The notes beneath the pieces are model-generated. The model did not search any database. It had not been told where the DNA came from and saw only the letters and a list, made by a program, of their open reading frames with translations. A stretch of DNA of 43,827 bases. Source: a bacterium. GTDB taxonomy: Bacteria > Lindowbacteria > 2-12-FULL-62-27. Location: the NCBI GenBank assembly GCA_016202645.1, contig JACQOF010000074.1:1-43827 (forward strand). The letters are read 5' to 3'. Shown in pieces: positions 2,489 through 19,739 of the stretch. Positions within the stretch are counted from its first letter, which is position 1. The number at the start of each line of letters is the position of its first letter. Both the position numbers and the translations under genes were made by a program.

Positions 2489-5400
2489 ATGACCCGATTT
2501 CTGACCGGCGCTCTGCGCCTGATATTCGCTGTTCTTCTGTTCAGCCAATGGCCAATAGCCAACAGCCAATGGCAAACCAGAGCGGAAGCGGCCGAGCCCA
2601 ACAAATACATCTCCTTCCAAGGGCAACTGAGCGACTCGACCGGTGCGCGGATCAACGGGAATGTTTCCGCGACGTTCAAGCTCTGGAGCGTGCCGACGGG
2701 CGGGACGGCGCTGTGGACGGAGGCGCAGACCATGGCGGCGGACAACGGCGTGACGAGCGCGACCCTCGGATCGGTGACGGGGCTGACCCTGCCGTTTGAC
2801 ACGCAGTACTGGCTGGGCGTGACGGTCGGATCGGACGCGGAGATGAGCCCGCGGATCAGGCTGGCGGCGGCGCCGTACGCGTTTACGGCGTACAGCCTCA
2901 CGGACAGCGCGCTGGCGCGGGGGACGTTGAAGGTGGCGGGTGCGGCGACGTTTTCCGATTCATTGATCGTGTCGGACACTGTCTTGTTCGTGAACAAGCA
3001 GACGGGCCGAGTCGCCACCGGCACATCGTCTCCGACGACGGCTCAATTGCATGTGGAGGGCCAGATTTATCTCCGAAGCAATGGCGGCGCGCAGATGACG
3101 ATTCTGAACTTGGACGCAACGGCCGGTTCCGCCGGCGCGGCGAGGGTTACGCTGGTTCCGCAAAATGCGGCAACCCAGCAGGACATTTGGGGAATTGACG
3201 GAGCGATAAGTCTTCGCACGGGCGGCGTCCCGGGTGTGGTGAGCGCGAGTGAACGCATCCGCATTTCATCCGCCGGCGCGGTTGGCGTCGGAACCGCCGC
3301 CCCAACCGACAGTCTTCACGTCGGCGGCCGCATCCTGATGGACACGAACACCCAGACGGCCGCGTCGGACGGCGCGATCCGGTGGTCAGGATCGGATTTC
3401 GAGGGGCGAAAAGCCGGATCGTGGGTGTCGCTCACGTCGGTGGGGACAGTGTCGCCAAGTTCCCTCTCGTCGGCCATTACGTCCGACAGCATCGCGGCGG
3501 ACGCGGTGACGTCGGCCAAGATCCTGGACGGCACGATAGCGAATGCGGATCTGGCCTCCGGGAGCTTTCCGAGCGTCACGGGCGTCGGTACGCTTGGGAC
3601 ATTGACCGTCTCCGGTACATCCGCCTTTTCCGATTCGGTGGTCGTGTCAGACACGGTTTTGGTCGTCAACAAACAATCGGGCAAGGTCGGTGTCGGCACA
3701 GCGGGGCCGGCCGGCTCCCTCCATGTCAAAGGCTCCAATACGTTATGGACAAACCCGCATGTTGAGATCGAGCATACAACAAGTGGTTCGTCCAAGATCA
3801 TGCAATCGTCTTCTGGACTTCTATTTCGGAATTTCAATCCAACGGGCACGAATGTGGCGTTTGATTTCAGGGACCCCACGCTCGACCTGTCGACGCTGAC
3901 AATCCTTGCCAATCGCAACGTCGGTGTTGCAACGGGGGCTCCGGCAGATAGTCTGCACGTGAACGGTACGTTGCGGGTCGAGGACACGATGGTGGTCGGC
4001 GACACGTGGTTGGTGGTGGACAAGAGCGGCCGGGTGGGGGTTGGGACGACGAGTCCGGCATATCCCCTTCATGTGAGCGGCGGCAACAGCCAGGTCCGAT
4101 TTGGTTCAAGCAATGCGGACGAGGGCGGGTATCTCATCAGCACCACGAACAACCAGGCTCTCGTGACGGGCGGCGGTTCGTGGAATGGAACAAACTGGAT
4201 CGCCAAATCGACCGAGTTTGGGTATATGGGAACCCAGAACGGTTCTGTGGTTTTCCAAGGCAACGACGGCCTGACGCCGGGCTCGTCCTTTACCCCCAAG
4301 TCCCTCATGCGAGTTGACGTCAACGGCAACGTCGGCATCCGCACGAGCGCGGCAACCCCCGCCGACAGCCTGCAGGTGGCCGGCCGGATTCTGATGGACA
4401 CCGTGACCGGCACGGGCGGCGCAGATGGCGCGATTCGGTGGTCAGGATCGGATTTCGAGGGGCGCAAGGCCGGGTCGTGGGTGTCGCTCACGGCGGGCGG
4501 TATTGGGGGCGACTCTTGGACGATCAACCATGCCACGAACGTGATCTCCAGCGCCAATAGCGGTAAAGTCTCGCTCGGATCGCTGACCGTTTCCGGCGTC
4601 TCCAGCTTCTCCGACTCGCTCATCGTGTCGGACACGGTATTGGTGGTCAACAAACAGAGCGGCAACGTCGGCGTGGGGACGGCTTCGCCAGCGTTTCCGC
4701 TGTCGTTTCCCAACACGCTTGGCGACAAGATCGCGCTCTACGGCGCGTCGGGCAACAATTTCGGGCTGGGCGTCCAGAGTTTCCTCATGCAGATCCACAC
4801 CTCCGGCAGTAACGAGGACATCGGATTCGGCTACGGGCAGAGCGGAAGTTTCTCGGAAGTCATGCGCATCAAAGGCACGGGCAACGTCGGCATCGCGACG
4901 GCCGCTCCGGCCGACAGCCTCACCGTGAACGGGTCCCTCACGGCCGACTCGCCGACCCTGGTGGTTCATTCCGGCAACAACCGGATCGGCGTCCGCACGG
5001 ACAATCCGCGCGCGCCGGTGGAAATTAAAAACGGCGTGCTGGGCTGGCAGGATCATATCCTTTTGAGCGGCTCCAGCGCCGGCACCGCATACTGGATCGG
5101 GCGGAACGACGACGAGGACGGAACCGCCGAGCCGACGGACCGGCTGGCCTTCGGCACCGGTACCACGGCCGGGACAAACGCAGCCATGCATATCTCCTCC
5201 AACGGCAACATCTCCATCGGCGACACCCCCGCCCCCGAGAAACTGGCCGTATTTGGATCGATGATGGTCGATTCGCCGACATTTTACGTCGACGCGGTGA
5301 ACAATCGGGTCGGCATCGGCACCTCCGCGCCCGACACGACCTTTTCCGTCAACGGCGAAGCCTCCAAAGCCGGCGGCGGGACGTGGAACACGTTTTCCGA

Positions 5401-5710
5401 CGGGCGGCTCAAGGACATCAACGGTGAATTCACGGCGGGCGCGGAGGAACTCATGAAGCTCCGCCCCATCCGCTACCGCTACAAGCGGGACAATCCGGCG
5501 GGCATCCGCGAGCACGCCGAGCATGTCGGTTTGGTGGCGCAGGAAGTCCAGTCGGCGATCCCGGAAGCGGTCTACGCGAACAACCAGGGATACCTCATGC
5601 TCAAAAGCGATCCGATCATATGGGCGATGCTGAACGCGATCAAGCAGCAGCAGGCGGAGATCGCGACCCTTCGCGCGGAAATGGAAGTTCTGAGGGGAGC
5701 GGCGCGTTAG
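2489..5710 (+). CDS. Exported tail-fibre-like repeat protein with C-terminal S74 chaperone domain
   Basis: This is a 1073-residue protein. The start is fixed by GGGAGGAA at 2473-2480, 8 nt before the ATG. A signal peptide (hydrophobic LIFAVLLF, likely cleavage near AEA/AEP at residue ~34) precedes ISFQGQLSDSTG, a domain common at the N-terminus of such surface proteins. The body is made of recurring cassettes: VGVGTASP-like beta turns with DSLHVNG, VVSDTVLVVNKQSG, and WSGSDFEGRKAGSWVSL. The last ~110 residues (FSDGRLKDI..., VGLVAQEVQSAIPEAV, then a coiled coil) are a Peptidase_S74 intramolecular chaperone, which drives trimerisation of fibre proteins and often cleaves itself at the Ser of SD-x-RLK; that Ser and Lys are present. 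A trimeric cell-surface fibre is likely. Its closest relative is the next gene; they share near-identical blocks. The signal peptide contains family B repeat words (2542-2579). Confidence 0.88.
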   Translation: MTRFLTGALRLIFAVLLFSQWPIANSQWQTRAEAAEPNKYISFQGQLSDSTGARINGNVSATFKLWSVPTGGTALWTEAQTMAADNGVTSATLGSVTGLTLPFDTQYWLGVTVGSDAEMSPRIRLAAAPYAFTAYSLTDSALARGTLKVAGAATFSDSLIVSDTVLFVNKQTGRVATGTSSPTTAQLHVEGQIYLRSNGGAQMTILNLDATAGSAGAARVTLVPQNAATQQDIWGIDGAISLRTGGVPGVVSASERIRISSAGAVGVGTAAPTDSLHVGGRILMDTNTQTAASDGAIRWSGSDFEGRKAGSWVSLTSVGTVSPSSLSSAITSDSIAADAVTSAKILDGTIANADLASGSFPSVTGVGTLGTLTVSGTSAFSDSVVVSDTVLVVNKQSGKVGVGTAGPAGSLHVKGSNTLWTNPHVEIEHTTSGSSKIMQSSSGLLFRNFNPTGTNVAFDFRDPTLDLSTLTILANRNVGVATGAPADSLHVNGTLRVEDTMVVGDTWLVVDKSGRVGVGTTSPAYPLHVSGGNSQVRFGSSNADEGGYLISTTNNQALVTGGGSWNGTNWIAKSTEFGYMGTQNGSVVFQGNDGLTPGSSFTPKSLMRVDVNGNVGIRTSAATPADSLQVAGRILMDTVTGTGGADGAIRWSGSDFEGRKAGSWVSLTAGGIGGDSWTINHATNVISSANSGKVSLGSLTVSGVSSFSDSLIVSDTVLVVNKQSGNVGVGTASPAFPLSFPNTLGDKIALYGASGNNFGLGVQSFLMQIHTSGSNEDIGFGYGQSGSFSEVMRIKGTGNVGIATAAPADSLTVNGSLTADSPTLVVHSGNNRIGVRTDNPRAPVEIKNGVLGWQDHILLSGSSAGTAYWIGRNDDEDGTAEPTDRLAFGTGTTAGTNAAMHISSNGNISIGDTPAPEKLAVFGSMMVDSPTFYVDAVNNRVGIGTSAPDTTFSVNGEASKAGGGTWNTFSDGRLKDINGEFTAGAEELMKLRPIRYRYKRDNPAGIREHAEHVGLVAQEVQSAIPEAVYANNQGYLMLKSDPIIWAMLNAIKQQQAEIATLRAEMEVLRGAAR
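2542..2579 (+). repeat. Family B words inside the signal peptide coding sequence, copy 1
   Basis: CAGCCAA, TGGCCAA, TAGCCAA, CAGCCAA, TGGCAAA follow each other without gaps and encode QWPIANSQWQ at the end of the signal peptide. They are the same 7-mers as the right arm of the array 75 bp upstream. Confidence 0.8.
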
Positions 5711-5721
5711 ACAATAATTGA

Positions 5722-5946
5722 GCAATGGTCATTTCATCATTGCACCAATGAGGAAATGGTCAACGGATTCCGCGGCATCGGTTGAAAATTGTTCATTGGT
5801 GCAATGACAGATTGGTGCAATGGTCAGGAGGCTCTGATCAATGGTCATTTCATCATTGCACCAATGAGGAATGGTCAACGGATTCAGAAGCGGGTCGAAA
5901 CGGTTGAAAATTGCTCATTGGTGCAATGACAGATTGGTGCAATGGT
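5722..5946. repeat. Family A inverted repeat array (two units)
   Basis: Two units with a 116-bp period (5726 and 5842) begin 12 bp after the stop of the fibre gene. Spacers differ (cgcggcatcgg; agaagcgggtcgaaacgg; gtcaggaggctctga), while the hairpin arms are almost unchanged. Confidence 0.85.
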
Positions 5947-5952
5947 CAAGAA

Positions 5953-6083: not shown

Positions 6084-6158
6084 GCTATTGGCTGATTGGC
6101 TAATAGCTAACGGCTAATAGCTAACAGCAAACAGCTATTAGCCAACAGCAAATAAACC
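6084..6158. repeat. Family B word array, copy 2
   Basis: Words built on TTGGCTn and nAGCTAA, with CTATTGG, CTGATTGG, CTAATAGCTAA and, on the right, CTATTAG, CCAACAG, form an imperfect inverted array. It ends just before the Shine-Dalgarno GGGAGG of the gene at 6176. Confidence 0.75.
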
Positions 6159-6175: not shown

Positions 6176-9100
6176 ATGACTCGATTCGCTGAAGGTATTT
6201 CCCGACTTGTTGTCGCTTTTCTCATGTTTGGCCTATGGCCAATAGCCAACAGCCAATGGCAAACAGTAGTGGAAGCGGCCGAGCCCAACAAATACATTTC
6301 GTTCCAAGGACAGCTGAGCGACTCGACCGGGGCGCGGATCAACGGGAATGTTTCCGCGACGTTCAAGCTCTGGAGCGTGCCGGCCGGCGGGACGGCGCTG
6401 TGGACGGAGGCGCAGACTCTGGCGGCGGACAACGGCATCACAAGCGCGACGCTCGGATCGGTGACGGGGCTGACGTTGCCGTTTGACACGCAGTACTGGC
6501 TGGGCGTCACGGTGGGAACGGACGCGGAGATGAGCCCGCGGATCAGGCTGGCGGCGTCGCCGTACGCGTTTACGGCGTACAGTCTGACGGACAGCGCGCT
6601 GGCGCGGGGGACGTTGACGGTGGCGGATACGGCGGTAATCAACGGATGGGTCGGCATCGGCACGGCGAGTCCCGCCGCCCGGTTGGACGTGGCGGGTGGT
6701 TCCTCCGTCGGCGGCGAAGCCGCCCTGATCGGGGGCCCGCTGGGGGTGGGGAAAGGCGGCGTCGTTGGCGGACGGCTGAGTTTGTTCAGCACCACAGGTC
6801 GCCAATTAACGCTGGAGATGTCCGATACCAATGACGCGGTTATCTCAAATAGCTTTGGCAAAATTCGGGTCACGCCGGTCACGGACTTCATCGTTTCGGA
6901 CACGCTGTTGGTCGTGAACAAGCAGAACGGCAGGGTCGGCATCGGCACGGCCAGTCCTGCTCAGAATCTGGATGTGGCCGGCACCGTGCAGGCCACGGCG
7001 TTTGTGGGGGATGGATCGGGACTAACGGGCCTATCGACGAGCGCCGCTCCGGACACGGACTGGACCGTCGACGGCTCGGGGAATGTGTACAGAACCACGG
7101 GAAACGTCGGCATCGGGACGGCGTCTCCGTCTGACAGCCTTCATGTGATGGGCAGGATACGAATGGATGGAGGGCCGGATGACCAGATGATTGACTTCAT
7201 CAAAAGCGGCACAATAGGGTCTTCAAGCAGTCCGGACACGTTTAGGATCCACGGCGCCGGTGGTATTCATCTCCGAACCTTTGGCAGTTCTTGGGCTGAC
7301 CGCATGAACATCACAAGCACTGGCAACGTCGGCATCGGGGATACGACACCGGGGGCCAAGTTGCGCGTCGCGGGCGATGTTTCTGTTTCTGATTCGCTGG
7401 TGGTGGGGGACACGCGGTTGGTTGTATTAAAGAGCGGCAACGTCGGCATCGGGACGGCGGCTTCAGCTTATCCATTGGACGTGCAGAACAGCGTCTCCGC
7501 CGGCGCCGCGTGGCCACAGCTTCGCCTCACGAACACTGCGGATTATATCTCAGGCGTTTCACTGGTCCGCAGCAGTGGAGCCGCCGGCGGCGAGTGGGTC
7601 GTTTCCCGGAGCAACAGCGCGGGCGCCGGAGGATCCCAGCCCGATGCATTTACGATTGGAGTGAACGGTGTCGGCAACTACCTCAGCATCACCACTGCCG
7701 GCAATGTCGGAGTAGGAACTCAGAGCCCGGCGAACATACTCTCCGTGGCGGGAAACTCGAATTTCGCAGGCAACGTCGGCATCGGGACGACGGCGCCCGG
7801 GGACAGTCTGCATGTCTCCGGCCGGATTCAAATGGACACGAACGCCGCGACAAGCGCGGCGGACGGCGCGATGCGGTGGTCGGGATCGGATTTCGAGGGG
7901 CGAAAAGGCGGATCGTGGGTGTCGCTCACGTCGGTTGGGACGGTGTCGCCAAGCTCCCTCTCGTCGGCCATTACGTCCGACAGCATCGCGGCGGACGCGG
8001 TGACGTCGGCCAAGATATTGGACGGCACAATCGCGAACGCGGATCTGGCCTCCGGGAGTTTTCCAAGCGTCACGAGCGTCGGCACGCTCGGCTCGCTGAC
8101 CGTCTCCGGCGTCTCCAGTTTTTCAGATTCCCTGATTGTGTCGGACACAGCGTTGGTGGTCAACAAGCAAAGCGGCAAAGTCGGCGTCGGGACCGCGAGT
8201 CCCAACATCGGCAGTTTCACCGGCGTGGAGATTTCGGCCCCCGCTGCCGGCTTGGCGCTGACGTCAACCGACGGCGGCGGCCGGCGGTTCATCATCGGAT
8301 CGACGACGGGCAACGCGGGGCTTTACGTCCGGGACGAAACCGCCGGGTCGTATCGGATGATGCTGGCCGACTCCGGGTCGCTCGGCATCGGAACGATCGG
8401 CCCGGACCGGATGCTGGACGTGCTCGACGCCGGCAACCCGCAGGTGCGTCTCACCCAGGCTGATGCGACGGCTTACGCGGACTTGCACATGAGGAGCACC
8501 GGCGATCTCGTGATAAACGTCGACGGCGTTGCGGATCAACTCGTCCTCGACAATGGCGGCAACGTCGGCATCGGGACGACGAGTCCGGGGGATAGTCTGC
8601 ACGTGAACGGAACATTACGCGTCGAGGACACGATGGTGGTGGGCGACACGTGGCTGGTTGTGGACAAGAGCGCCAAAGTCGGCGTCGGTACCGCGAGTCC
8701 TTCCGAGCAATTGCACGTCAAGGGGACGTCCCATAACAGGCTGAAGGTCGAGGGGGGGACCGGGAGTTCCGTCGGCATGAACATGGTTGAAGGCGCCAAC
8801 AGCTCGTTTGTCCAGGTCGAAAATGGAAACCGGATGGGATTCTATTCCGGCGATCAGACCACGGCCGACATGGTGCTGACCTATGGCGGCAACCTCGGGA
8901 TCGGTACAGGCACCCCGTCTGACAGTCTGCACGTGGTTGGCCGCGCGAGGATTTCCGACACGCTGACCGTCGGGGATTCCTACATCGTGGCAGGCCCGGC
9001 GGGCGTTGGCATCCGGAACCTGAGTCCCTCCGGCATCCTTGACATCAGAACTGGCAACGAGTACGAGCTTCGGTTTTCTGGAAATTTCATCGCCAACATC

Positions 9101-10369
9101 AACCATGCCAACGCCGGCACGCCCATGTTCGTGAGCACCAACGGCGCCCAGCTTTCGCTGGGCAGCAACACCGACGCCGAGCATCTCAACATCCTGAACG
9201 GCAACGTCGGCATCGGCACGACGGCTCCAGGGGATAGTCTGCACGTGAACGGTACGTTGCGGGTCGAGGATACGATGGTGGTCGGCGACACGTGGCTGGT
9301 GGTCGATAAAAACGGGAATGTCGGCGTCGGGACCACCACGCCGCTTGGCAATCTCACGGTCGCCAGTTCCGGCGCCACCCGCGAACTGATGGTTCTGCGC
9401 AGGAACGACTCGACCACAAAATGGTCCATCGGAAATATCACCTCCAACTTCAACCTCTACGGGTTTACAGGCGCCACCTCGGCCAGCACGGACCTCAAAC
9501 TGGCCGTGACGTCCGCCGGCAACGTCGGTATCGCGACGGCCGCTCCGGCCGACAGCCTCACCGTGAACGGATCCTTCACGGCCGACTCGCCGACTTTGGT
9601 GGTCCACTCGGGCAACGACCGCGTCGGCGTCCGCACGGACAATCCGCGCGCGCCAGTCGAAATTAAAAACGGCGTCTTGGGCTGGCAGGACCACGTTCTT
9701 TTGAGCGGGTCCAGCACCGGCACCGCATACTGGATCGGGCGGAACGACGACGAGGACGGAACCGCCGAGCCGACGGACCGGCTGGCCTTCGGCACCGGAA
9801 CGACCGCGGGAACGAACGCAGCCATGCACATCTCCTCCAACGGCAACATTTCCATCGGCGACACCCCCGCTCCCGAGAAACTGGCCGTGTTTGGATCGAT
9901 GATGGTCGATTCGCCGACATTTTACGTCGACGCGGTGAACAATCGGGTCGGCATCGGCACCTCCGCGCCCGACACGGACTTTTCCGTCAACGGCGAGGCC
10001 AGCAAATCCGGCGGAGGGACTTGGAACACGTTTTCAGACGTGCGCTTGAAGGACATCAAAGGGCAGTTTGCGGCGGGTTCGGAAGCGCTCATGAAGATCC
10101 ACCCGGTCCGGTACAGCTACAGGAAAGACAACGGCGCGGGCCTCCGGGATCATTCCGAAAAGGTTGGGCTCATCGCGCAGGAAGTCGCCGAAGCGATCCC
10201 GGACGCGGTCTACTCGAACAATCAGGGCTATCTCATGCTCAAAAGCGACCCGATCATCTGGGCGATGTTGAACGCGATCAAGGAACAGCAGGTCCGGATG
10301 GACGCGCAGTCGGTTGAAATCGAGGCGCTGAAGGAGGAGATCGGTGTCTTGAAGCGGGGGAATGAGTAG
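6176..10369 (+). CDS. Exported tail-fibre-like repeat protein with C-terminal S74 chaperone domain (long paralogue)
   Basis: This 1397-residue paralogue of the preceding gene has a GGGAGG Shine-Dalgarno 12 nt before the ATG. The order is: signal peptide with the same WPIANSQWQT segment, the ISFQGQLSDSTG domain, about a dozen VGIGTASP/DSLHVNG cassettes, and an S74 chaperone (FSDVRLKDIKG, VGLIAQEVAEAIPDAV) ending in a short coiled coil. The cassette NGTLRVEDTMVVGDTWLVVD occurs twice here (near 8610 and 9250) and once in the first paralogue (near 3963). The stretch from ~9520 to 10020 is almost identical to 4890-5390, whereas the central parts differ in number and content of cassettes, as expected from recombination between repeats. 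The S74 Ser and Lys are kept. A cell-surface or appendage fibre is the likely role; the ligand is unknown. Confidence 0.88.
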   Translation: MTRFAEGISRLVVAFLMFGLWPIANSQWQTVVEAAEPNKYISFQGQLSDSTGARINGNVSATFKLWSVPAGGTALWTEAQTLAADNGITSATLGSVTGLTLPFDTQYWLGVTVGTDAEMSPRIRLAASPYAFTAYSLTDSALARGTLTVADTAVINGWVGIGTASPAARLDVAGGSSVGGEAALIGGPLGVGKGGVVGGRLSLFSTTGRQLTLEMSDTNDAVISNSFGKIRVTPVTDFIVSDTLLVVNKQNGRVGIGTASPAQNLDVAGTVQATAFVGDGSGLTGLSTSAAPDTDWTVDGSGNVYRTTGNVGIGTASPSDSLHVMGRIRMDGGPDDQMIDFIKSGTIGSSSSPDTFRIHGAGGIHLRTFGSSWADRMNITSTGNVGIGDTTPGAKLRVAGDVSVSDSLVVGDTRLVVLKSGNVGIGTAASAYPLDVQNSVSAGAAWPQLRLTNTADYISGVSLVRSSGAAGGEWVVSRSNSAGAGGSQPDAFTIGVNGVGNYLSITTAGNVGVGTQSPANILSVAGNSNFAGNVGIGTTAPGDSLHVSGRIQMDTNAATSAADGAMRWSGSDFEGRKGGSWVSLTSVGTVSPSSLSSAITSDSIAADAVTSAKILDGTIANADLASGSFPSVTSVGTLGSLTVSGVSSFSDSLIVSDTALVVNKQSGKVGVGTASPNIGSFTGVEISAPAAGLALTSTDGGGRRFIIGSTTGNAGLYVRDETAGSYRMMLADSGSLGIGTIGPDRMLDVLDAGNPQVRLTQADATAYADLHMRSTGDLVINVDGVADQLVLDNGGNVGIGTTSPGDSLHVNGTLRVEDTMVVGDTWLVVDKSAKVGVGTASPSEQLHVKGTSHNRLKVEGGTGSSVGMNMVEGANSSFVQVENGNRMGFYSGDQTTADMVLTYGGNLGIGTGTPSDSLHVVGRARISDTLTVGDSYIVAGPAGVGIRNLSPSGILDIRTGNEYELRFSGNFIANINHANAGTPMFVSTNGAQLSLGSNTDAEHLNILNGNVGIGTTAPGDSLHVNGTLRVEDTMVVGDTWLVVDKNGNVGVGTTTPLGNLTVASSGATRELMVLRRNDSTTKWSIGNITSNFNLYGFTGATSASTDLKLAVTSAGNVGIATAAPADSLTVNGSFTADSPTLVVHSGNDRVGVRTDNPRAPVEIKNGVLGWQDHVLLSGSSTGTAYWIGRNDDEDGTAEPTDRLAFGTGTTAGTNAAMHISSNGNISIGDTPAPEKLAVFGSMMVDSPTFYVDAVNNRVGIGTSAPDTDFSVNGEASKSGGGTWNTFSDVRLKDIKGQFAAGSEALMKIHPVRYSYRKDNGAGLRDHSEKVGLIAQEVAEAIPDAVYSNNQGYLMLKSDPIIWAMLNAIKEQQVRMDAQSVEIEALKEEIGVLKRGNE
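6230..6264 (+). repeat. Family B words inside the signal peptide coding sequence, copy 2
   Basis: GGCCTATGGCCAA, TAGCCAA, CAGCCAA, TGGCAAA encode LWPIANSQWQ in the signal peptide of the long fibre protein. The words match those upstream of the gene and those in the first paralogue. Confidence 0.8.
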
Positions 10370-10378
10370 AGGAGATCG

Positions 10379-10490
10379 GAGAAAGCAGCAAAGAGCAAAG
10401 CGGCAATGGTCAATTATCAAAGAATGCAGACCCCAATGGGTCGGTTGAGACTTGATCGTTGTTGCTTTGATGCTTTGACAGTTTCTCAGA
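10379..10490. repeat. Family D word array, left copy
   Basis: The left arm has AGCAAAG words (gcagcaaagagcaaagc) then caatggtcaattatcaaag; the right arm is inverted (gttgttgctttgatgctttg). It lies between the fibre gene and the four-helix bundle gene. The same words recur after that gene. Confidence 0.8.
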
Positions 10491-10506
10491 AAGGCAGCCT
10501 TACACG

Positions 10507-10875
10507 ATGAAGGGTGACGATGTCTCTGATCGCATGGTGGCGTTCGGAGCGACTGTTCTGGATCTGGCGGAGGCTCTTCCCCAAACGCGGTCCGGACGGC
10601 ATGTGGCCGATCAGGTCATGCGGTCGGGAACGTCCTGCGGCGCGAACTTTGAGGAGGGGCGCGGCGCGGAATCACGAGCGGATTTTGTGCACAAGCTGTC
10701 GGTGACGCACAAGGAGCTTAAGGAAACCCGATACTGGCTTCGCGTGGTGGTGAAGAGAAAAATGTCAGACGGCGTCGCGGTCGAGCTTCTTGAGGAGTGC
10801 GAAGAACTCTGCGCGATTATTGGGAAGAGCATATCGACTGCCAAAGGCGGCCGTAAAGAATCGGTTGAGACTTGA
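10507..10875 (+). CDS. Four-helix bundle protein (23S-IVP/Avd-like family), second copy
   Basis: This 122-residue paralogue of the protein at 1664-2026 has GRHVADQVMRSGTSCGANFE, EEGRGAES and HKLSVTHKELKETRYWL, plus an ELLEECEELCAIIGKSI C-terminal helix. AAAGG lies ~11 nt before the ATG. The family folds as an antiparallel four-helix bundle and often forms oligomers; Avd of diversity-generating retroelements belongs to the wider group. The gene is flanked by two copies of the family D array. The right copy overlaps the end of the gene: the last residues (ESVET) and the stop codon are read from array sequence, so the array has become part of the protein. No reverse transcriptase, template repeat or rRNA is nearby. 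Function unknown; association with repeats is seen directly. Confidence 0.9.
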   Translation: MKGDDVSDRMVAFGATVLDLAEALPQTRSGRHVADQVMRSGTSCGANFEEGRGAESRADFVHKLSVTHKELKETRYWLRVVVKRKMSDGVAVELLEECEELCAIIGKSISTAKGGRKESVET

Positions 10876-11061
10876 CCGTTGTTGCTTTGTTGGTTTGAAA
10901 ATTGATCCGGAGGAAGTTTTCGGAGAAAGCGGCAAAGAGCAAAGCAGCAAAGAGCAAAGCAGCAAAGAGCAAAGCGGCAATGGTCAATGGTCAAAGAATG
11001 CCGAACACAAAGGGGTCCTTTGAAACTTGATCGTTGTTGCTTTGATGCTTTGTTGGTTTCA
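10859..11061. repeat. Family D word array, right copy
   Basis: It starts inside the four-helix bundle gene (gaatcggttgagacttga), continues with inverted words and then AGCAAAG, AGCAAAGC repeated three times, caatggtcaatggtcaaag, a core, and the inverted arm ttgttgctttgatgctttg. It duplicates the array at 10379-10490. Confidence 0.82.
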
Positions 11062-11146
11062 CCATGGATCCGACGGGGTGTCCACATAGATCTCCGGCGC
11101 GCCGCATGTGCGGGGCGCCTCGCAGAACAGAAGGACGAGGTGATGT

Positions 11147-14100
11147 ATGAAACGAATTAAACTCATGGCTCTTACGGCGCTGATTCTCGCGGGAATTGGC
11201 CTCATCGCCTATGCCCTTCTGACTTCGACCAACTACCAGTACACCGAAACCGTGCTGGTGACCGGGGGCGATACCGCCGCGTCGGTGAATTACCGGTATA
11301 CCGCCGGGCTGGGCCAGCCCGCGGCCTCGGATAGCGTCGCGAGCGCCAACTACGTGATGCGGCCGGGGTTTTATCACGAGATCACCGCCGCGCATACCGG
11401 GTCGATCTGGTATGTGAACGCGTCGACCGGGCACGACACCCTTGGAAACGGAACGTCCTCCAGTCCCTTCAAGACCATCCAGCGCGGCGTCAACTCCGCC
11501 GCGGCCGGCGAGACCGTTCAGATCGCGGCCGGGACCTACACCGAGACGACCATTCTCATCACGACGTCCAACATCGCGCTCGTCGGCGCCGATTCGCGCA
11601 CCACCATCATCGACCCGCCCGGCGCCAACACCGTCACGAATCTTTACGGGATCCTCGCGCAGAATGTGACAGGGCTCGTCCTCAAAAATCTCGGTGTGAC
11701 CGGCGCCTACACCGGCGTGCGGTTCGACAACGTCGACTTCTCTACCGTCACCGGCGACAGTTTCGGATCAAACAGCCGGCACGGCATCGAGCTGGTGAAC
11801 GGGTCCGACACGAACACCATCACCCAGTGCGACCTCAGCCACAACGTCGTCGGGTCCGGGTTCGGGATCGAAATCAACGGCAGCGCCTTCAACACCCTTT
11901 CAAACAGCATCCTCAACGCCAACGGGCAGTACGGCGTCTACACATCGAGCGGCAACGACAACACCGTCTCGGGAAACACGGTGAATTCCAACTCGAGCTA
12001 CGGAATGTTTCTCCTGAACAGCGCCCGGCTCATCGTCAAGAACAACACCGTCACCGGCGGCGCCTCGCAGGGCATCCGGCTGAACAATGGATCGAACTGC
12101 GTCTTCACCGGAAACACCGTGAACTCCAACCAATACGGCATCGTGATCGCCGGCCCAAGCGCGCGCGTGACGAACAACGTCATGTCGCAAAATTCCATCT
12201 ACGGCCTCTGGGTCATCAACGGCTCGAACCTCTACGCCGCGCAGAACACCATCACCGACAACACCCAATACCAGATTTCCTTCGACCCTCTCGGCCCGAC
12301 AAACTCCCTCGTCGAGAAGAACAACTTCAAGACTTCCACCACCAACCCCGACAGCATCGTCTACAACCGGTCCGACACCATCCAGACCGTGACCCGGAAC
12401 TGGTGGGGCACGACCGACGAGGCCGTCATCCGGACCAAAATCTTCGACACCGCCGCAAGTCTGAAAACCACATTCAAACCCTATCGCCTCGCCCAGGTCG
12501 ACACCGCCGCCGGCGCCGATACCGGCGCGCCGATGGAACCGCAGGCCGTCGCGGCGAACACGTCGATTGCAGGCGCCGTGCAGATCACGTGGACCAATCC
12601 GGCCTTCGACGAGGACACCGCAACCCAGACGGCCTTCGGCGGCGTCGACGTCTACCGCCTCGTCAACGTCCCCGACTCGGCCAACTGGGTCGGCCAGCTC
12701 CTCGTAAGCCTCACGGGGACCCCGACCTCCTACACCGACGCCGCCGTGAGCGTCGGAAACACCTACTATTACCGCCTGTCGTCGCACGACACCGCGACGC
12801 TCGTCAATTCCAGTTTTCTCACCGACACCGTCTCGGGTTCGCCCGTCTCCGGCAGCGCCGGCGATTCGGTCCTCGTCGACAGCGGCAGCCACCAGATCAT
12901 CTCCAACGGCGGAAACGCCACGCTGTCGATGGACGTGAAGGATTCGGCCTCCGGCACGCTCATCACGAGCGCGAGCGTCAGCGTCACCGCGGTTTTCAAC
13001 GGCGCCGCCGTCTCCGCGCTCGACACCACCCTCACCACCGACACCGCCGGCCGCGCGCGGGTCGTGCTGAAACTCTCGCAGGGCGAAGGCGTCTACGTCT
13101 TCACCGCGTCCCCGGCCCTGAGCGGCGGCCAGAAGGCGCGCTTCGTCGTCTACACCGACCGCCGGCCGGTACAGGCCGACAAGTGGACGATGTTCGCGCC
13201 GTTCAAGAAACCCGTCTCCGGCGTGAACGGCATCACCGTGAACGGGACCCCCGGCCCGGGAAGCGTCATCCTGTATTGGTACGACCCGGCGGCCACAGCG
13301 GTTACGACCTTCGGCCAGTACAAGTCCGTGAGCGGCCAGGCCAGCCCCAACAGTTCCACCGCCGGAACCTTCTCGGATTTTCAGTCCGGCCGCGCCTACT
13401 GGGCGAAATCCGTCGGCGCCGCCGTGACGATCGGCGCGGCGTCCGGCGCCTCCGACGTTCCCGAGACCGTGTACTATCAGGTCCACGTCAAGGAAGGCTG
13501 GAACATGGTCGGCAATCCATTTCCGTTTTTCATCGACTGGGAGCAGGACGTTTTTTTCGACACGAATCCTCTGGATACGGAAGCCCTGCAGTGCATCACG
13601 ACGGCGGCCGCCGAGACTGCCGGGGTTCTCACCAACAAAATCTACTGGCGGGACGAGAGCGTACTGAGCGGAAACGTCGGCTACCGCTACGGCCCATCGA
13701 CTGCCACGTCGACCGAGACCACCGTCCAGCTCAAACCCTGGGCGGGATTCTGGGTCTACCTGCCACCGGCCCCGGCGGTCTGCGACACCGGTTGTACGCT
13801 TCTCTTTTCCGGTTCCATCAAACGCATCCCGCAGACCGTGCCGATCCAACAGCAGGCGCCTTCTTATCTGACAGAAACGGAGAAAGGGAGAGCCGGCGAG
13901 CCGGAGAATTGGGTCATTCAGATCAAGGCAGTCGGGCAGAACGGCGCAAGGGATGATTACAACTTCGTCGGCGTCGCGCCCGGCGCGAAGGAAGGCTACG
14001 ACCGGCATGACGCCTACAAGGCGCCGCCGATTGGCGATTATGTGCAGGTTGGCGTCCGTCCTTTGAGTGTATCGGAGTATCGGAGTATCGGAGTATCGGA

Positions 14101-14677
14101 GAAACCCCAGAGTCCGTTGATGGCGGCGAGCTTGGTGCCGCCCGTCACGACGGTGGCCACGTGGGAGGTTGTTGTCGCGGCCAGTTCAGCCGGCGCGGCC
14201 ACGCTTTCGTGGGACGCCGCGGCTTTGCCGGGAGGCTATGGCGCATATCTCCTGGGCGGCCCCGCCGGTCCTGTTGATTTGCTGAAGTCCCAATCCCTGC
14301 CTCTCTCCCTTTCTCCCTCTCTCCCTTTCTCCCTGACCTTGACCCTGGCCGTCGGCACGCCCGAACACCTCGCGCCGTTCCTCGCCGCGCCGCTCTCGAA
14401 AGAAAACACGTTCATCTACCCGAACCCGGGTCCGGACGCGACGGGAAGCATGAGCTTCAAATACAACCTGCAGGGCGCCGCGGATGTCAGCCTGAAAATT
14501 TTCGACATGGGCGGCAAGCTTGTGAAGGAGATGAAAGGTTCGGGCATCGCCGGATCGAACACCCTCACGTGGGACACCACGAACAAGCACGGCCAGAGGC
14601 TCGGGTCGGGCGTCTACATCTACAAGCTCGAGTCGGGGGGGACGACGCTGGTGGACAAGCTTGCCATCGTGCGCTGA
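11147..14677 (+). CDS. Secreted right-handed beta-helix protein with T9SS-like sorting domain
   Basis: This is a 1176-residue protein with a signal peptide (MKRIKLMALTALILAGIGLI). A segment starting SIWYVNASTGHD and SPFKTIQRGV is typical of pectate-lyase-fold/DUF1565 beta-helix proteins, and is followed by many N-rich coils (NTVNSNSSYGM, NNGSNCVFTGNTVNS) of a parallel beta-helix to about residue 430. Then come a fibronectin type III-like module (ITWTNPAFDED...YYYRLSSHD), an invasin-like Ig module, the DKWTMFAPF/EGWNMVGNPFPF region shared with the protein at 3-1412, and the FlgD/T9SS-like sorting domain. A GAGGTGATGT Shine-Dalgarno-like stretch precedes the ATG. Beta-helix proteins often bind or cleave polysaccharides; no catalytic set could be named here. 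Two word arrays interrupt the C-terminal region (14065-14102, 14299-14341). Confidence 0.87.
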   Translation: MKRIKLMALTALILAGIGLIAYALLTSTNYQYTETVLVTGGDTAASVNYRYTAGLGQPAASDSVASANYVMRPGFYHEITAAHTGSIWYVNASTGHDTLGNGTSSSPFKTIQRGVNSAAAGETVQIAAGTYTETTILITTSNIALVGADSRTTIIDPPGANTVTNLYGILAQNVTGLVLKNLGVTGAYTGVRFDNVDFSTVTGDSFGSNSRHGIELVNGSDTNTITQCDLSHNVVGSGFGIEINGSAFNTLSNSILNANGQYGVYTSSGNDNTVSGNTVNSNSSYGMFLLNSARLIVKNNTVTGGASQGIRLNNGSNCVFTGNTVNSNQYGIVIAGPSARVTNNVMSQNSIYGLWVINGSNLYAAQNTITDNTQYQISFDPLGPTNSLVEKNNFKTSTTNPDSIVYNRSDTIQTVTRNWWGTTDEAVIRTKIFDTAASLKTTFKPYRLAQVDTAAGADTGAPMEPQAVAANTSIAGAVQITWTNPAFDEDTATQTAFGGVDVYRLVNVPDSANWVGQLLVSLTGTPTSYTDAAVSVGNTYYYRLSSHDTATLVNSSFLTDTVSGSPVSGSAGDSVLVDSGSHQIISNGGNATLSMDVKDSASGTLITSASVSVTAVFNGAAVSALDTTLTTDTAGRARVVLKLSQGEGVYVFTASPALSGGQKARFVVYTDRRPVQADKWTMFAPFKKPVSGVNGITVNGTPGPGSVILYWYDPAATAVTTFGQYKSVSGQASPNSSTAGTFSDFQSGRAYWAKSVGAAVTIGAASGASDVPETVYYQVHVKEGWNMVGNPFPFFIDWEQDVFFDTNPLDTEALQCITTAAAETAGVLTNKIYWRDESVLSGNVGYRYGPSTATSTETTVQLKPWAGFWVYLPPAPAVCDTGCTLLFSGSIKRIPQTVPIQQQAPSYLTETEKGRAGEPENWVIQIKAVGQNGARDDYNFVGVAPGAKEGYDRHDAYKAPPIGDYVQVGVRPLSVSEYRSIGVSEKPQSPLMAASLVPPVTTVATWEVVVAASSAGAATLSWDAAALPGGYGAYLLGGPAGPVDLLKSQSLPLSLSPSLPFSLTLTLAVGTPEHLAPFLAAPLSKENTFIYPNPGPDATGSMSFKYNLQGAADVSLKIFDMGGKLVKEMKGSGIAGSNTLTWDTTNKHGQRLGSGVYIYKLESGGTTLVDKLAIVR
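14065..14102 (+). repeat. In-CDS word array, 8-bp period (AGTATCGG)
   Basis: Four copies of AGTATCGG in a row encode SVSEYRSIGVSE. The equivalent linker of the homologous protein (815-848) has a different word, so the site is shared but the content is not. Confidence 0.75.
14299..14341 (+). repeat. In-CDS CT-rich word array, second copy
   Basis: 8-mers CTCCCTTT, CTCCCTCT, CTCCCTTT, CTCCCTGA encode the Leu/Ser/Pro linker before the sorting domain, at the same place as 1029-1078 but in another order and number. Confidence 0.75.
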
Positions 14678-14841
14678 GAATCGGTTGACAATTATTCATT
14701 GGTGCAATGACAAATTGGTGCAATGCTCGCGAGGCCTTGATCAATAGTCATTTCATCATTGCACCAATGAGGAATGGTCAACGGATTCAGAAGCGCGCCG
14801 AATCGGTTGAAAATTGCTCATTGGTGCAATGACAGATTCCC
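14678..14841. repeat. Family A inverted repeat array
   Basis: One and a half units directly follow the stop codon, as after the related gene ending at 1412. The second unit breaks off after gacagattcc. From 14842 to 14924 I see only a possible upstream region of the next gene. Confidence 0.82.
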
Positions 14842-16727: not shown

Positions 16728-16846
16728 CCACGAACGAGCACGAACAGACACGAACGGACACGAAGAATTAAGATCCAGGATTATGTTTGCTATGCGTTCG
16801 CATCACGTTTCGTGTTCGTTCGTGCTCGTTCGTGTCCGTTCGTGGC
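16728..16846. repeat. Family E word array, exact 10-bp period, inverted arms
   Basis: The left arm words are CACGAACGAG, CACGAACAGA, CACGAACGGA, CACGAAGAAT; the right arm read on the other strand gives CACGAACGGA, CACGAACGAG, CACGAACGAA. The first seven columns are fixed and the last three vary between A and G. The core (ttaagatccaggattatgtt and onward) is unique. Confidence 0.85.
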
Positions 16847-17466
16847 GAATGTTGGTTCTTGCGCTGAACATGGCGTTTTTCTCCGCCTGTGGCTTGCCGC
16901 CGCCCGCTCCGGTCCACCCGGCCGTGCTTGCCCATGAGCTCAAGTCCCGGGAACTGCCCCTCGCGCAGTCGTCCCAGCTCTATGCCGTGGCGGATCTCAT
17001 TAACCGGGAAATCCAGATCAAAATCCGCGGGGTGATCCTTCAGACGTTTCCCATCCGCGCCCTGAGAACCCACCGGCCCTGGGAATCTCCGGCCGCGTCT
17101 CTCACGCTTCGAAAAAAACGGCTCGCCTCTCCGCGCGATCGGACTGTCATCGAGCCTCCAAGAAAGAACGGCGACAGCGAATCGGTCGTCCGCGAGCGCG
17201 TGGAGGACAGCCTGGAAGCCGACGACATGCCGGACTGGTTTTTGATGCAGTTCAAGGAAGGCGCCCGCCTCCTGGTTCTGCCGGAACTTTCAGAAAGCGC
17301 CTCGCCTCGCCGGCGTCTCGTCAGGCTCTGGCGGCGGGGCCTCTTCGCCCTGAACCGGATCTTCTCGTCCGGGCCTGCCGTGACTCTGGTCCTTTCAGAA
17401 TCGGACGCCCGGGCGTTGTACTGGACCATTCAGCCGGACCAGAAAGTCATCGTCCTCGCGCCCTGA
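16822..17466 (+). CDS. Putative lipoprotein of unknown function downstream of L,D-transpeptidases
   Basis: The frame carries a lipoprotein-like signal: basic VRVRSWR, hydrophobic MLVLALNMAFF, then SAC with Cys followed by GLPPPAPVHP. The mature part (~200 residues) has QLYAVADLINREIQIKIRGV, a DMPDWFLMQFKEGARLLVLPE segment and a basic RRRLVRLWRRGL stretch; I do not recognise a family. The start is uncertain. ATG 16849 leaves no basic n-region. GTG 16822 supplies one but lies inside the family E array. ATG 16711, 2 nt after the previous stop, would run through the whole array. The position behind two L,D-transpeptidase genes suggests an envelope role. Confidence 0.55.
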   Translation: MLVRVRSWRMLVLALNMAFFSACGLPPPAPVHPAVLAHELKSRELPLAQSSQLYAVADLINREIQIKIRGVILQTFPIRALRTHRPWESPAASLTLRKKRLASPRDRTVIEPPRKNGDSESVVRERVEDSLEADDMPDWFLMQFKEGARLLVLPELSESASPRRRLVRLWRRGLFALNRIFSSGPAVTLVLSESDARALYWTIQPDQKVIVLAP

Positions 17467-17770: not shown

Positions 17771-17879
17771 CAATGGTTATTTCGAGATTGCACCAATGAT
17801 AAATGGTCAACGGATTCCACCGCATCGGTTGAAAATAGTTCATTGGTGCAATGACAGATTGGTGCAATGGTTGGAGATT
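17771..17879. repeat. Family A inverted repeat, diverged copy
   Basis: A single unit turned inside out: right-arm words first (gagattgcaccaatgat, aaatggtcaacgg), spacer attccaccgcatcgg, then the left arm (ttcattggtgcaatgaca). It is 43 bp from the surE start. It shows more substitutions than the copies in the first 15 kb. Confidence 0.75.
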
Positions 17880-17922
17880 GTCGACGACAGATTTCCCGGT
17901 TCTCCGGAAGGGGCTTGTTGAC

Positions 17923-18759
17923 ATGCGCGGCAACCATCGCCGTCCCGTGGGATTGTTTCCCGCGGCGCTTCGGCACAGAACGATCGTTCTCACCAACGAC
18001 GACGGGATTTTCGCGGAGGGCCTTCAGGCCATGCGTGCGTCGCTGGTCGAGCGCGGTCTGAACCCCGTCGTCGTCGCGCCCGACCGCGGCGCCAGCGGCG
18101 CGTCCCGGAGCCTGTCCCTCAACCGGCCGCTCACGCTCCGGGAAATCGCTCCGGACCAGTACACGGTCGACGGCACGCCGACGGATTGCGTCATGCTGGC
18201 GCTGTTCGAAGTCCTTCGGCGCCGCCGTCCACCGGCGATTCTTCTATCGGGCATCAACCACGGCCAGAACCTCGGGGACGACGTCACCTATTCCGGCACC
18301 TGCGCGGCCGCGGCCGAGGGTTGTATGGAACGCATTCCGAGCGTGGCGCTTTCCGCGCTTCCGTGCCAGGACGGCAGTTATCATTTCCGGGACCATGCCG
18401 ATTATTTCGCCGACCGTATCCTGCCGCGTATCCTGCGGCTCAAGGTGCCCCGCTACAGTTTTCTCAATCTGAATTTTCCGCCGGTCCCCGCCGGCGACTT
18501 CCGCGGGATTCGCATCGTGCCGATGGGCCGGTCCACCTACCAGAATCCCATCCTCCGCCAGCGGCACCCGGATCCCTATCACCGCAAGGACCGCCGGTGG
18601 GTCTATTGGATCGCCGGCGCGCCGAAGGCCGTCAAGCACGCCGGTACTGACATCGAAGCCATCCGGAAGGGCTATGTTTCCCTGAGCCCGGTCCGCTTGG
18701 AACTTAACCACCCGGAACTGCTGGCGCATTGCCGCCGCGCGTTCACGGGCATCCAATGA
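17923..18759 (+). CDS. surE: 5'/3'-nucleotidase SurE
   Basis: A 278-residue member of the SurE phosphatase family, which removes phosphate from nucleoside monophosphates (EC 3.1.3.5/3.1.3.6) in a metal-dependent way. Motifs: TNDDGIFAEG with the metal-binding Asp pair at residues 26-27, a GASRSLS loop, GTPTDCVMLAL, and SGINHGQNLGDDVTYSGTCA with the metal-binding Asn. It has an N-terminal extension of ~18 residues (MRGNHRRPVG...) before the usual beta strand IVLTNDDG. The ATG at 17923 is preceded by GGAAGGGG with good spacing; farther upstream in-frame codons come from the repeat. The stop overlaps the start of the radical SAM gene (ATGA), so the two are translationally coupled. Confidence 0.93.
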   Translation: MRGNHRRPVGLFPAALRHRTIVLTNDDGIFAEGLQAMRASLVERGLNPVVVAPDRGASGASRSLSLNRPLTLREIAPDQYTVDGTPTDCVMLALFEVLRRRRPPAILLSGINHGQNLGDDVTYSGTCAAAAEGCMERIPSVALSALPCQDGSYHFRDHADYFADRILPRILRLKVPRYSFLNLNFPPVPAGDFRGIRIVPMGRSTYQNPILRQRHPDPYHRKDRRWVYWIAGAPKAVKHAGTDIEAIRKGYVSLSPVRLELNHPELLAHCRRAFTGIQ

Positions 18760-19739
18760 AGTTAAATCCGAAATCCGAAATCCGAAATCCGAGATTTCAG
18801 TATCTCGTCGGCCCTGTCCTCTCCCGACGGCTCGGCAGATCCCTCGGCGTGGATCTGCTGAAGGGTGAATGCACCTTTCTGTGTCCATATTGCGAGGTGC
18901 GGGTGCGACATGTGGACCGCCTCGAGCTGTTTGAGTTTTCCGAAACGGACGCGCTCTACGCCGAGTACACGCGCTTCTGCGCGGAATACACGGACCAGCT
19001 CGATTCGGTGACCTTCTCCGGGACCGGCGAGCCGACTCTAATTTCCAATCTGGGAGACATCCTGCGTCAGTTCCGCAAGATCGGGCCGTACCCCCTGACG
19101 GTCATCACGAACGGGTCCCTGCTCTGGAATCCGCGGGTGCGGGAAAACCTGCGGGACGCCGATCTCGTCGTGCCGTCCCTGGACGCCGTCACTGAAAAGG
19201 CCTGGCGCCGCGTGAACCGCCCGCATCCGGATTTGACGCTCGAAAAGTATCTCGATGGAACCCGGCAGTTCTGCAAAGAACGCACCGGCCGCATCTGGCT
19301 TGAAGTCCTGCTCGTCCGCCGCGCCAACGACGGCCTGGAGGACATTGAGGCGCTGGGGCGGTTTCTCAAGACGATCCGCGTCGACCGGGTCCAGCTCGGC
19401 AGTGTCGACCGTCCCCCGGCGGCAAGCCGCGCCGCGCCTATTTCAGCCGCGGCTTTGCAAAACCGGGCGCGCCTGCTCAGGGAGATCAGCGGCCAAAGAG
19501 TGGACGTGATGTCCCGTTCGGCGCCCGCTCCGGAGAAAAAATCGCCGGCGGGGCGCGCGAGCCCGGACTTGTCCAAAAAAATCCTGAAGAGTGTCAGACT
19601 TCGGCCGCAGACCCCCGCGGAAATCCGGAGCCTCATGCGTCTTTCCCGCGGCGAAATGGACCGCGCGCTCCAGCCGCTCATCTCCCGCGGGGAAATCCGG
19701 GCGCGCCGGCACGGCCGTCGGACGTTTCTGCAGGGCTGA
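18756..19739 (+). CDS. Radical SAM protein of the COG0731 (wyosine-synthase-like) type
   Basis: A 327-residue radical SAM enzyme. The cluster-binding motif is C39-x3-C43-x2-C46 (ECTFLCPYC), followed by VTFSGTGEPTLISNLGDIL and TVITNGSLLWNP, the SAM-binding strands. The combination resembles the Fe-S oxidoreductase group related to tRNA wyosine synthases; the bacterial substrate is not known. The C-terminal ~60 residues (TPAEIRSLMRLSRGEMDRAL...) look like a winged helix. The ATG at 18756 overlaps the surE stop. Residues 4-15 (NPKSEIRNPRFQ) are encoded by a run of four identical 7-mers (family I), so the natural N-terminus appears to have been replaced or extended by repeat sequence. Confidence 0.85.
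   Translation: MKLNPKSEIRNPRFQYLVGPVLSRRLGRSLGVDLLKGECTFLCPYCEVRVRHVDRLELFEFSETDALYAEYTRFCAEYTDQLDSVTFSGTGEPTLISNLGDILRQFRKIGPYPLTVITNGSLLWNPRVRENLRDADLVVPSLDAVTEKAWRRVNRPHPDLTLEKYLDGTRQFCKERTGRIWLEVLLVRRANDGLEDIEALGRFLKTIRVDRVQLGSVDRPPAASRAAPISAAALQNRARLLREISGQRVDVMSRSAPAPEKKSPAGRASPDLSKKILKSVRLRPQTPAEIRSLMRLSRGEMDRALQPLISRGEIRARRHGRRTFLQG
18764..18799 (+). repeat. Family I array: four perfect AAATCCG 7-mers at a gene start
   Basis: Four AAATCCG repeats are followed by agatttcag, an inverted fragment. Because 7 is not a multiple of 3, the same word is read in three frames. It starts 8 bp after the first base of the radical SAM gene. Confidence 0.85.

Follow-up and report, generated by a model that had tools for sequence, protein, structure and literature searches.

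For the IVP/S23 four-helix-bundle proteins, a family present in many phyla, we know of no described function. Its genes occur in the 23S rRNA IVS of Leptospira and Coxiella (S23p/IVP ORF), where inverted repeats enclose the ORF; the Coxiella IVS measures 428 nt, has 28-bp terminal inverted repeats and is excised by RNase III (PMC4990558). It is also established that a gene can be paired with a repeat, as in the RAYT/REPIN systems (REPtrons), in which a single gene lies between palindromic repeats of its own flavour, each protein has its own repeat, and non-autonomous copies are dispersed (PMC3116915). Heptanucleotide repeats, such as the cyanobacterial STRR, the TAACTGA of Beggiatoaceae and the G-rich heptamers of Xanthomonas and Nostoc, have been recorded in abundance from many genomes, with no accepted cause (PMC4679880, PMC4692102).

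Here we describe a gene of the IVP family, gene D, in a window of 43,827 nucleotides (the whole stretch of Lindowbacteria DNA analysed, contig C48). Units of this kind are like the IVS in their protein family, in the inverted repeats that enclose the ORF and in their size (about 450 nt against 428 nt) but, unlike the IVS, they lie outside rRNA, behind protein genes, and have word-array arms and solo arrays. With the REPtron they share the single gene between palindromic repeats of its own flavour, the dispersed non-autonomous copies and the specific repeat for each protein; by contrast, they have no Y1 transposase, their arms are iterated words of 7-8 nt where REP is one conserved palindrome, and their product is a helical-bundle protein with no known enzymatic activity. 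In period and look, the arms are as the heptanucleotide repeats. Avd of the diversity-generating retroelements (DGR) is likewise a four-helix bundle, and multi-chain Avd structures are among the matches of the gene D model, but no RT, TR or VR adjoins gene D. By its protein the gene D unit falls within the IVP family, yet it is neither an IVS nor a DGR nor a REPtron. The protein family, the heptamer repeats and the RAYT/REPIN pairing were known already; the linkage of PF05635 genes to word or heptamer arrays appears to be new, as we found no paper connecting them in open full text, and a term search of PMC4679880 and PMC4692102 gave no mention of the PF05635 family.

Gene D, its paralogue and their arrays

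A previous sequence-only reading of this DNA had pointed to an Avd-like gene boxed by an array, called D, whose words form the C-terminus of the protein. The features of the locus are as follows:

10379-10487, + strand: left D palindrome (RNA fold z -5.4)
10382-10413, + strand: left D word arm (AAAGCAGC AAAGAGC AAAGCGGC AATGGTCAA)
10414-10441, then 10442-10478, + strand: loop, then mirror arm of the left D palindrome
10507-10875, + strand: gene D, four-helix-bundle / 23S rRNA IVP protein gene (PF05635, TIGR02436, AlphaFold)
10857-10896, + strand: D mirror arm, from which the five final ESVET codons and the stop are read
10926-10998, + strand: right D word arm, expanded, with period 15 = GCAAAGA + GCAAAGCA
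11017-11060, + strand: right D mirror arm (array D sequence matches, GGTTGARACTTGAYCGTTGTTGCTTTG)

Gene D starts with ATG and encodes 122 aa. The product belongs to the family by both profiles used, PF05635 (61.2 bits, cut-off 33.8) and TIGR02436 (82.3 bits, cut-off 24), and its AlphaFold model (pLDDT 93) has the fold of 2RLD (S23 family, Bacteroides; Z 17.7) and 2GSC (Xanthomonas; Z 16.1), which are the closest PDB entries; Avd chains come next, their Z values (13.6-14.0) being close to what ordinary helical bundles give. 2RLD and 2GSC are pentamers in solution, and five chains are present in each of the two crystal units; Avd binds nucleic acids. Of the proposed likeness to Avd, at most the resemblance in fold was retained. 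No reverse transcriptase lies beside gene D, and the RT matches of the genome are on contigs C77 and C106. No rRNA or any other Rfam match was found in the window, so that gene D is not inside a 23S rRNA gene. The gene is present in one copy only in its genome, and its upstream neighbour is a Peptidase_S74 ORF.

As had been claimed, array D lies on both sides of the gene: the sequence at 10376-10490 recurs at 10956-11060 (88%, E 1e-30) and at 10861-10898 (92%). Genome-wide array counts were obtained from sequence searches, and the search with 10376-10490 gave no array D elsewhere in the genome. The motif GGTTGARACTTGAYCGTTGTTGCTTTG occurs at 10443, 10863 and 11018 (expected 0), and CAAAGAGCAAAGC at 10389, 10933, 10948 and 10963 (expected 0.67). 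The left palindrome begins 9 nt past the stop of ORF 6176-10369, and the right side (10926-11060) is a further palindrome with additional word copies, in whose word arm TRF reported 3.7 copies of period 15 (10926-10980). The end of the gene is indeed read from the array, the last codons GAA TCG GTT GAG ACT TGA (10858-10875), that is ESVET and the stop, being within the TCGGTTGAGACTTGA segment; in the AlphaFold model this array-coded end is a low-confidence tail (pLDDT <50 at residues 120-122) external to the bundle.

Rather than simple direct arrays, the flanks of gene D form imperfect palindromes, the two mirrored arms being built of the same words. The left copy (10376-10490) is a strong RNA hairpin (z -5.4, 0/200 shuffles), and in the RNA fold of 10376-11062 the left and right arms are nested around the gene (z -7.3). 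Local alignment of the upstream flank to the reverse-complemented downstream flank (the inverted-flank score) gave 32 for gene D (p 0.005; the 99% level of the null in the window is 26). By flank score and nested fold, inverted repeats enclose the ORF.

The paralogous gene A and the arrays of its type are distributed along the window as follows:

1413-1660, + strand: array A upstream of gene A, from the first base after the stop of ORF 15-1412
1664-2026, + strand: gene A, paralogous four-helix-bundle gene (PF05635 50 bits; 66% identical to D)
2038-2257, + strand: array A downstream of gene A (sequence search, TRF)
5719-5951, + strand: solo array A, 8 nt past the stop of ORF 2489-5710
14681-14838, + strand: solo array A, 3 nt past the stop of ORF 11147-14677
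17771-17869, + strand: solo array A, more diverged copy (sequence search)

The two paralogues carry different flanking vocabularies, in agreement with the sequence-only reading: TTGGTGCAATGA in the array of gene A and GCAAAGA/GCAAAGCA in that of gene D. The inverted-flank score of gene A, 53, was matched by 0/2319 null positions in the window. Copies of array A devoid of the gene are found at 5719, 14681 and 17771, and also on contigs C123 and C4. Arrays of the two types start 0-9 nt past a stop codon at 1413, 5719, 10379 and 14681.

Further word arrays were observed in the window. The solo inverted array at 16730-16850 is made of 9-10 nt words (ACGAACGGACACGAAG) in the style of the GxxExxY genes described below, and no PF13366-like gene lies between its arms. 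Four AAATCCG heptamers at 18764-18792, directly past the stop of ORF 17851-18759, encode the start of the next ORF (NPKSEIRNP). Two sorting-domain proteins contain in-frame CCTCTCTCCCTTTCTC words (1030-1072 and 14300-14334), which match the arms of the IVP locus L002 on contig C35. Heptamer palindromes of GCTAATAGC/GCTGTTGGC stand immediately upstream of two Peptidase_S74 proteins (2391-2466 and 6098-6154), and their words are also coded near the N-termini of both (PIANSQW). The octamer GTATCGGA is repeated four times, exactly, at 14069-14101 in the coding sequence of ORF 11147-14677.

Word arrays in the family and their inheritance

Word arrays were present on both sides of 6/6 family members of this genome, each with a different word: GGGATTA, GGGAGAAA, GCAAAGA/GCAAAGCA (D), AAATCCT, TTGGTGCAATGA (A) and, in the sixth (L006, G000:C73), a long protein under the PF05635 cut-off, weaker GATCCGAC-like words. 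The L006 protein has an IVP domain plus a Cys4 motif resembling a topoisomerase zinc finger. Most family members of the other two Lindowbacteria genomes analysed, one of which is Candidatus Lindowbacteria RIFCSPLOWO2_12_FULL_62_27 (locus L042 = L038), are also surrounded by word arrays.

The arrangement is general. Of 80 named relatives, 77 had enough flank, and these represent about 20 phyla. Their median inverted-flank score was 29; random positions within these loci gave 12, as did mismatched loci, and 43/77 loci were above the 99% control level. In 60 Cyanobacteriales genomes the IVP loci had a median of 25.5, with 50% at a score of at least 26; ParE toxin genes of the same genomes had a median of 12, and 0/30 reached that score. 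The arms are iterated words of 7 nt, sometimes 8 nt: the pooled flank autocorrelation peaks at lags 7, 14, 21 and 28 (0.41 vs 0.26 at lag 7), tandem flanks amount to 69% vs 3.6%, and the period, which could be classified in 97 loci, was 7 in 84 of them, 8 in 12 and 9 in one. Mostly 4-6 words form an arm, the full range being 3-18. Words forming the C-terminus are a general trait too, because the stop is inside or near the downstream arm in most of 49 loci (within the arm in 20, and at most 15 nt from its start in 14 more). The array starts from -24 to +20 nt from the upstream stop in 34/63 loci with a co-directional ORF, a count that has no matched null and serves as a lead.

The choice between periods 7 and 8 clusters weakly on the protein tree (9 changes vs 12.4 shuffled), and we rejected it as a protein-determined trait. 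On Nostocales plasmids, three four-helix-bundle genes within conjugation operons (L122, L123, L125) have short arms only, and these copies may be domesticated. Spread by phages found no support in IMG/VR, where a pattern search gave no relatives and the D words are absent.

The sequence-only reading had supposed that each protein is paired with its own repeat, and had let this depend on the array type being non-random with respect to the protein clade. It is non-random: arm similarity grows with protein identity (Mantel rho 0.236, with 0/2000 permutations as high), a conservative value because the best inverted match is at times another nested repeat, as in L083. Each protein is therefore inherited with its own repeat. 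Arms are shared by 66% of the pairs with at least 80% protein identity and by about 1% of those under 60%; between phyla, they are shared by 8/24 pairs at 70% identity or more, vs 10/1022 under 60% (permutation 20/2000). The supposed pairing was thus borne out as co-inheritance, but the link is gone below roughly 60-70% identity. The clearest case is the AATATCGAACAAGGAAT arm common to Brocadia and Desulfobacteria, which recurs in variant form in Nitrospira and Fuerstiella. In these cross-phylum pairs the homologous stretch of DNA starts about 50 nt upstream of the tblastn match (itself starting at residue 1-6) and extends 30-60 nt past its end; since the homology stops at the arms, an arm-gene-arm unit of about 450 bp is delimited. 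The two arms change in concert, because they are more alike within a locus (0.60) than between loci at 60-70% protein identity (0.28). The dN/dS values, 0.03-0.13, indicate that the protein is maintained by purifying selection. As in RAYT/REPIN, protein-specific palindromic repeats surround the gene. There is good support both for the unit as such and for a pairing by descent.

Similar arrangements were found in other families. In the same 60 Cyanobacteriales genomes, 70% of the GxxExxY genes (PF13366) were enclosed at a score of at least 26 (21/30, against 0/30 for ParE), no less often than the IVP genes, and the inverted arrays of these nuclease-superfamily genes (L140-L169) consist of 8-10 nt words, e.g. 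AACCACAAAGACACAAAGAACACAAAG. Stand-alone DUF559 (PF04480) genes (L276-L305) tend to sit between CCCCTAACCCCCC- or CCCCTAACCCCCCTTnnnnAAGGGGGG-type palindromes, with a median score of 20, while the Lindowbacteria Y1 transposase (RAYT-like) genes L311, L312, L316 and L317 adjoin the word repeats GGGGTCAGACC and GCCGTCAG. These cases suggest that repeat-protein pairs form a larger group, in which RAYT/REPIN is the case described so far (PMC3116915).

Probable movement of the unit and possible explanations

Co-transfer, copies and one presence/absence site indicate that the unit is likely mobile. The site is the ctaD-ctaE spacer: in one genome (G049) the whole unit stands immediately past the ctaD stop, and in another (G080) it is absent, with both flanks 94-95% identical to the first; other relatives have solo heptamer arrays of other words, or about 20 nt only. 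The homologous site was thus found filled in one genome. Lindowbacterium G001 carries the L034 unit twice, the second copy being damaged but having the same arms, at a distance of 1.2 kb. In Planktothrix agardhii plasmids the arrays change in length by whole words, differing by 7 and 21 nt between strains in nearly identical surroundings; no empty site was seen there, only the change in array length. In the loci inspected we detected no target-site duplication that the unit itself would have caused. In G054, the identical IVP units L237 and L238 lie inside an IS4-like MITE (TIR TAGGGCTGTTTCATTC), and the 12-bp duplication belongs to this enclosing MITE and not to the IVP unit. Remnants of RAYT genes enclose IVP units in Scytonema and Fischerella (L099, L100, L103, L087), three of which share the right junction before TGGCATCC, with differing left junctions. 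Other elements may therefore do the moving.

Slightly on the favourable side of even, we suggest that the locus is a compact mobile repeat-protein unit, made of a word arm, a four-helix-bundle gene and a mirrored word arm. Its arms, in which a word of 7-8 nt is repeated in inverted arrays, usually 4-6 times per arm, would serve as cis ends; the protein would recognise the words of its own arms, folded as hairpins or single-stranded, and this binding would license the copying or insertion of the arms, gene included or not, preferably directly past stop codons. Copying could proceed via host replication/repair, or by a Y1 transposase in trans, and solo arrays would be copies without the gene. 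The binding of words by the protein, the ratio of one word per subunit and the copying route are inferred. Several points count against a mobile unit: catalytic residues are not known in the protein, no duplication could be assigned to the unit, gene D is single-copy, and the presence/absence site is filled in one genome only.

If a ring of identical subunits meets a row of identical words, the words might be read in the manner of TRAP. On the other hand, the range of words per arm leaves a strict rule of one word per subunit unsupported and, because word counts vary and the period of 7 or 8 is weakly tied to the protein tree, we hold this step low, as not very probable. The widest form of the proposal, which as a whole we regard as unlikely, would make the units a widespread mobile class. 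Its protein, without enzymatic activity, would form a ring and recognise its own 7-nt words at about one per subunit, as TRAP does with repeated RNA triplets; this reading would drive the multiplication and spread of mirrored arrays, the class would be a main source of bacterial heptanucleotide repeats, and parallel classes would exist for the GxxExxY nucleases (8-10 nt words) and possibly DUF559.

Alternatively, the arms could be REPIN-like hairpins moved in trans by Y1 (RAYT), the four-helix-bundle gene being a passenger or an accessory. The ten Y1_Tnp genes of this genome, the word repeats beside several Lindowbacteria Y1 genes, the cyanobacterial units in RAYT remnants and the established RAYT/REPIN pairing (PMC3116915) are all in favour. 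We consider it rather unlikely, in view of several observations: 0/10 Y1 genes are on the contig of the window (no PF01797 match on C48), the words at the inspected Y1 genes (GGGGTCAGACC, GCCGTCAG) are unlike arrays A and D, and the arms track the IVP clade. Moreover, so strong an association, and dN/dS <0.13, would not be expected for a passenger gene.

The arms might also act at the RNA level: like those of the 23S rRNA IVS, they would pair in read-through transcripts into a stem for RNase III and be retained for RNA processing and harmlessness, movement being incidental. Although the terminal repeats and RNase III excision of the Coxiella IVS (PMC4990558), the array starts near the upstream stop (34/63 loci) and the hairpin of the window (z -5.4) are consistent with this, processing alone leaves unexplained the 7-nt word, its iteration, the solo arrays and the concerted change in both arms, and we judge it improbable.

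Even less probable is that the heptamer arrays arise by slippage anywhere between genes, that the genes sit in or insert into pre-existing arrays, and that the arms match as halves of one palindrome. The wide occurrence of heptanucleotide repeats among genomes (PMC4679880, PMC4692102) and the frequent solo arrays here are as slippage would predict; it would not predict that ParE genes of the same genomes reach the threshold in 0/30 cases, that GxxExxY has its own longer word rhythm, or that the arms of one clade are common to several phyla in unrelated surroundings and, in the Brocadia/Desulfobacteria group, are conserved at many independent insertion sites. Finally, a DGR-like retroelement, with the protein partnering a reverse transcriptase, is suggested by the similarity to the Avd fold and can be dismissed as highly improbable, since the RT matches are on other contigs, no RT was found in any unit inspected and no template/variable repeat pair was seen.

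Through the linkage of the IVP genes to word arrays, an old protein family with no described function is connected to the seven-base repeats for which bacterial genomes have so far offered no explanation. If each protein of a compact mobile unit pairs with its own word array, the function of the protein and the origin of the heptamers would both be testable, by binding and by mobility. If this is true, the REPtron idea would reach proteins other than transposases.
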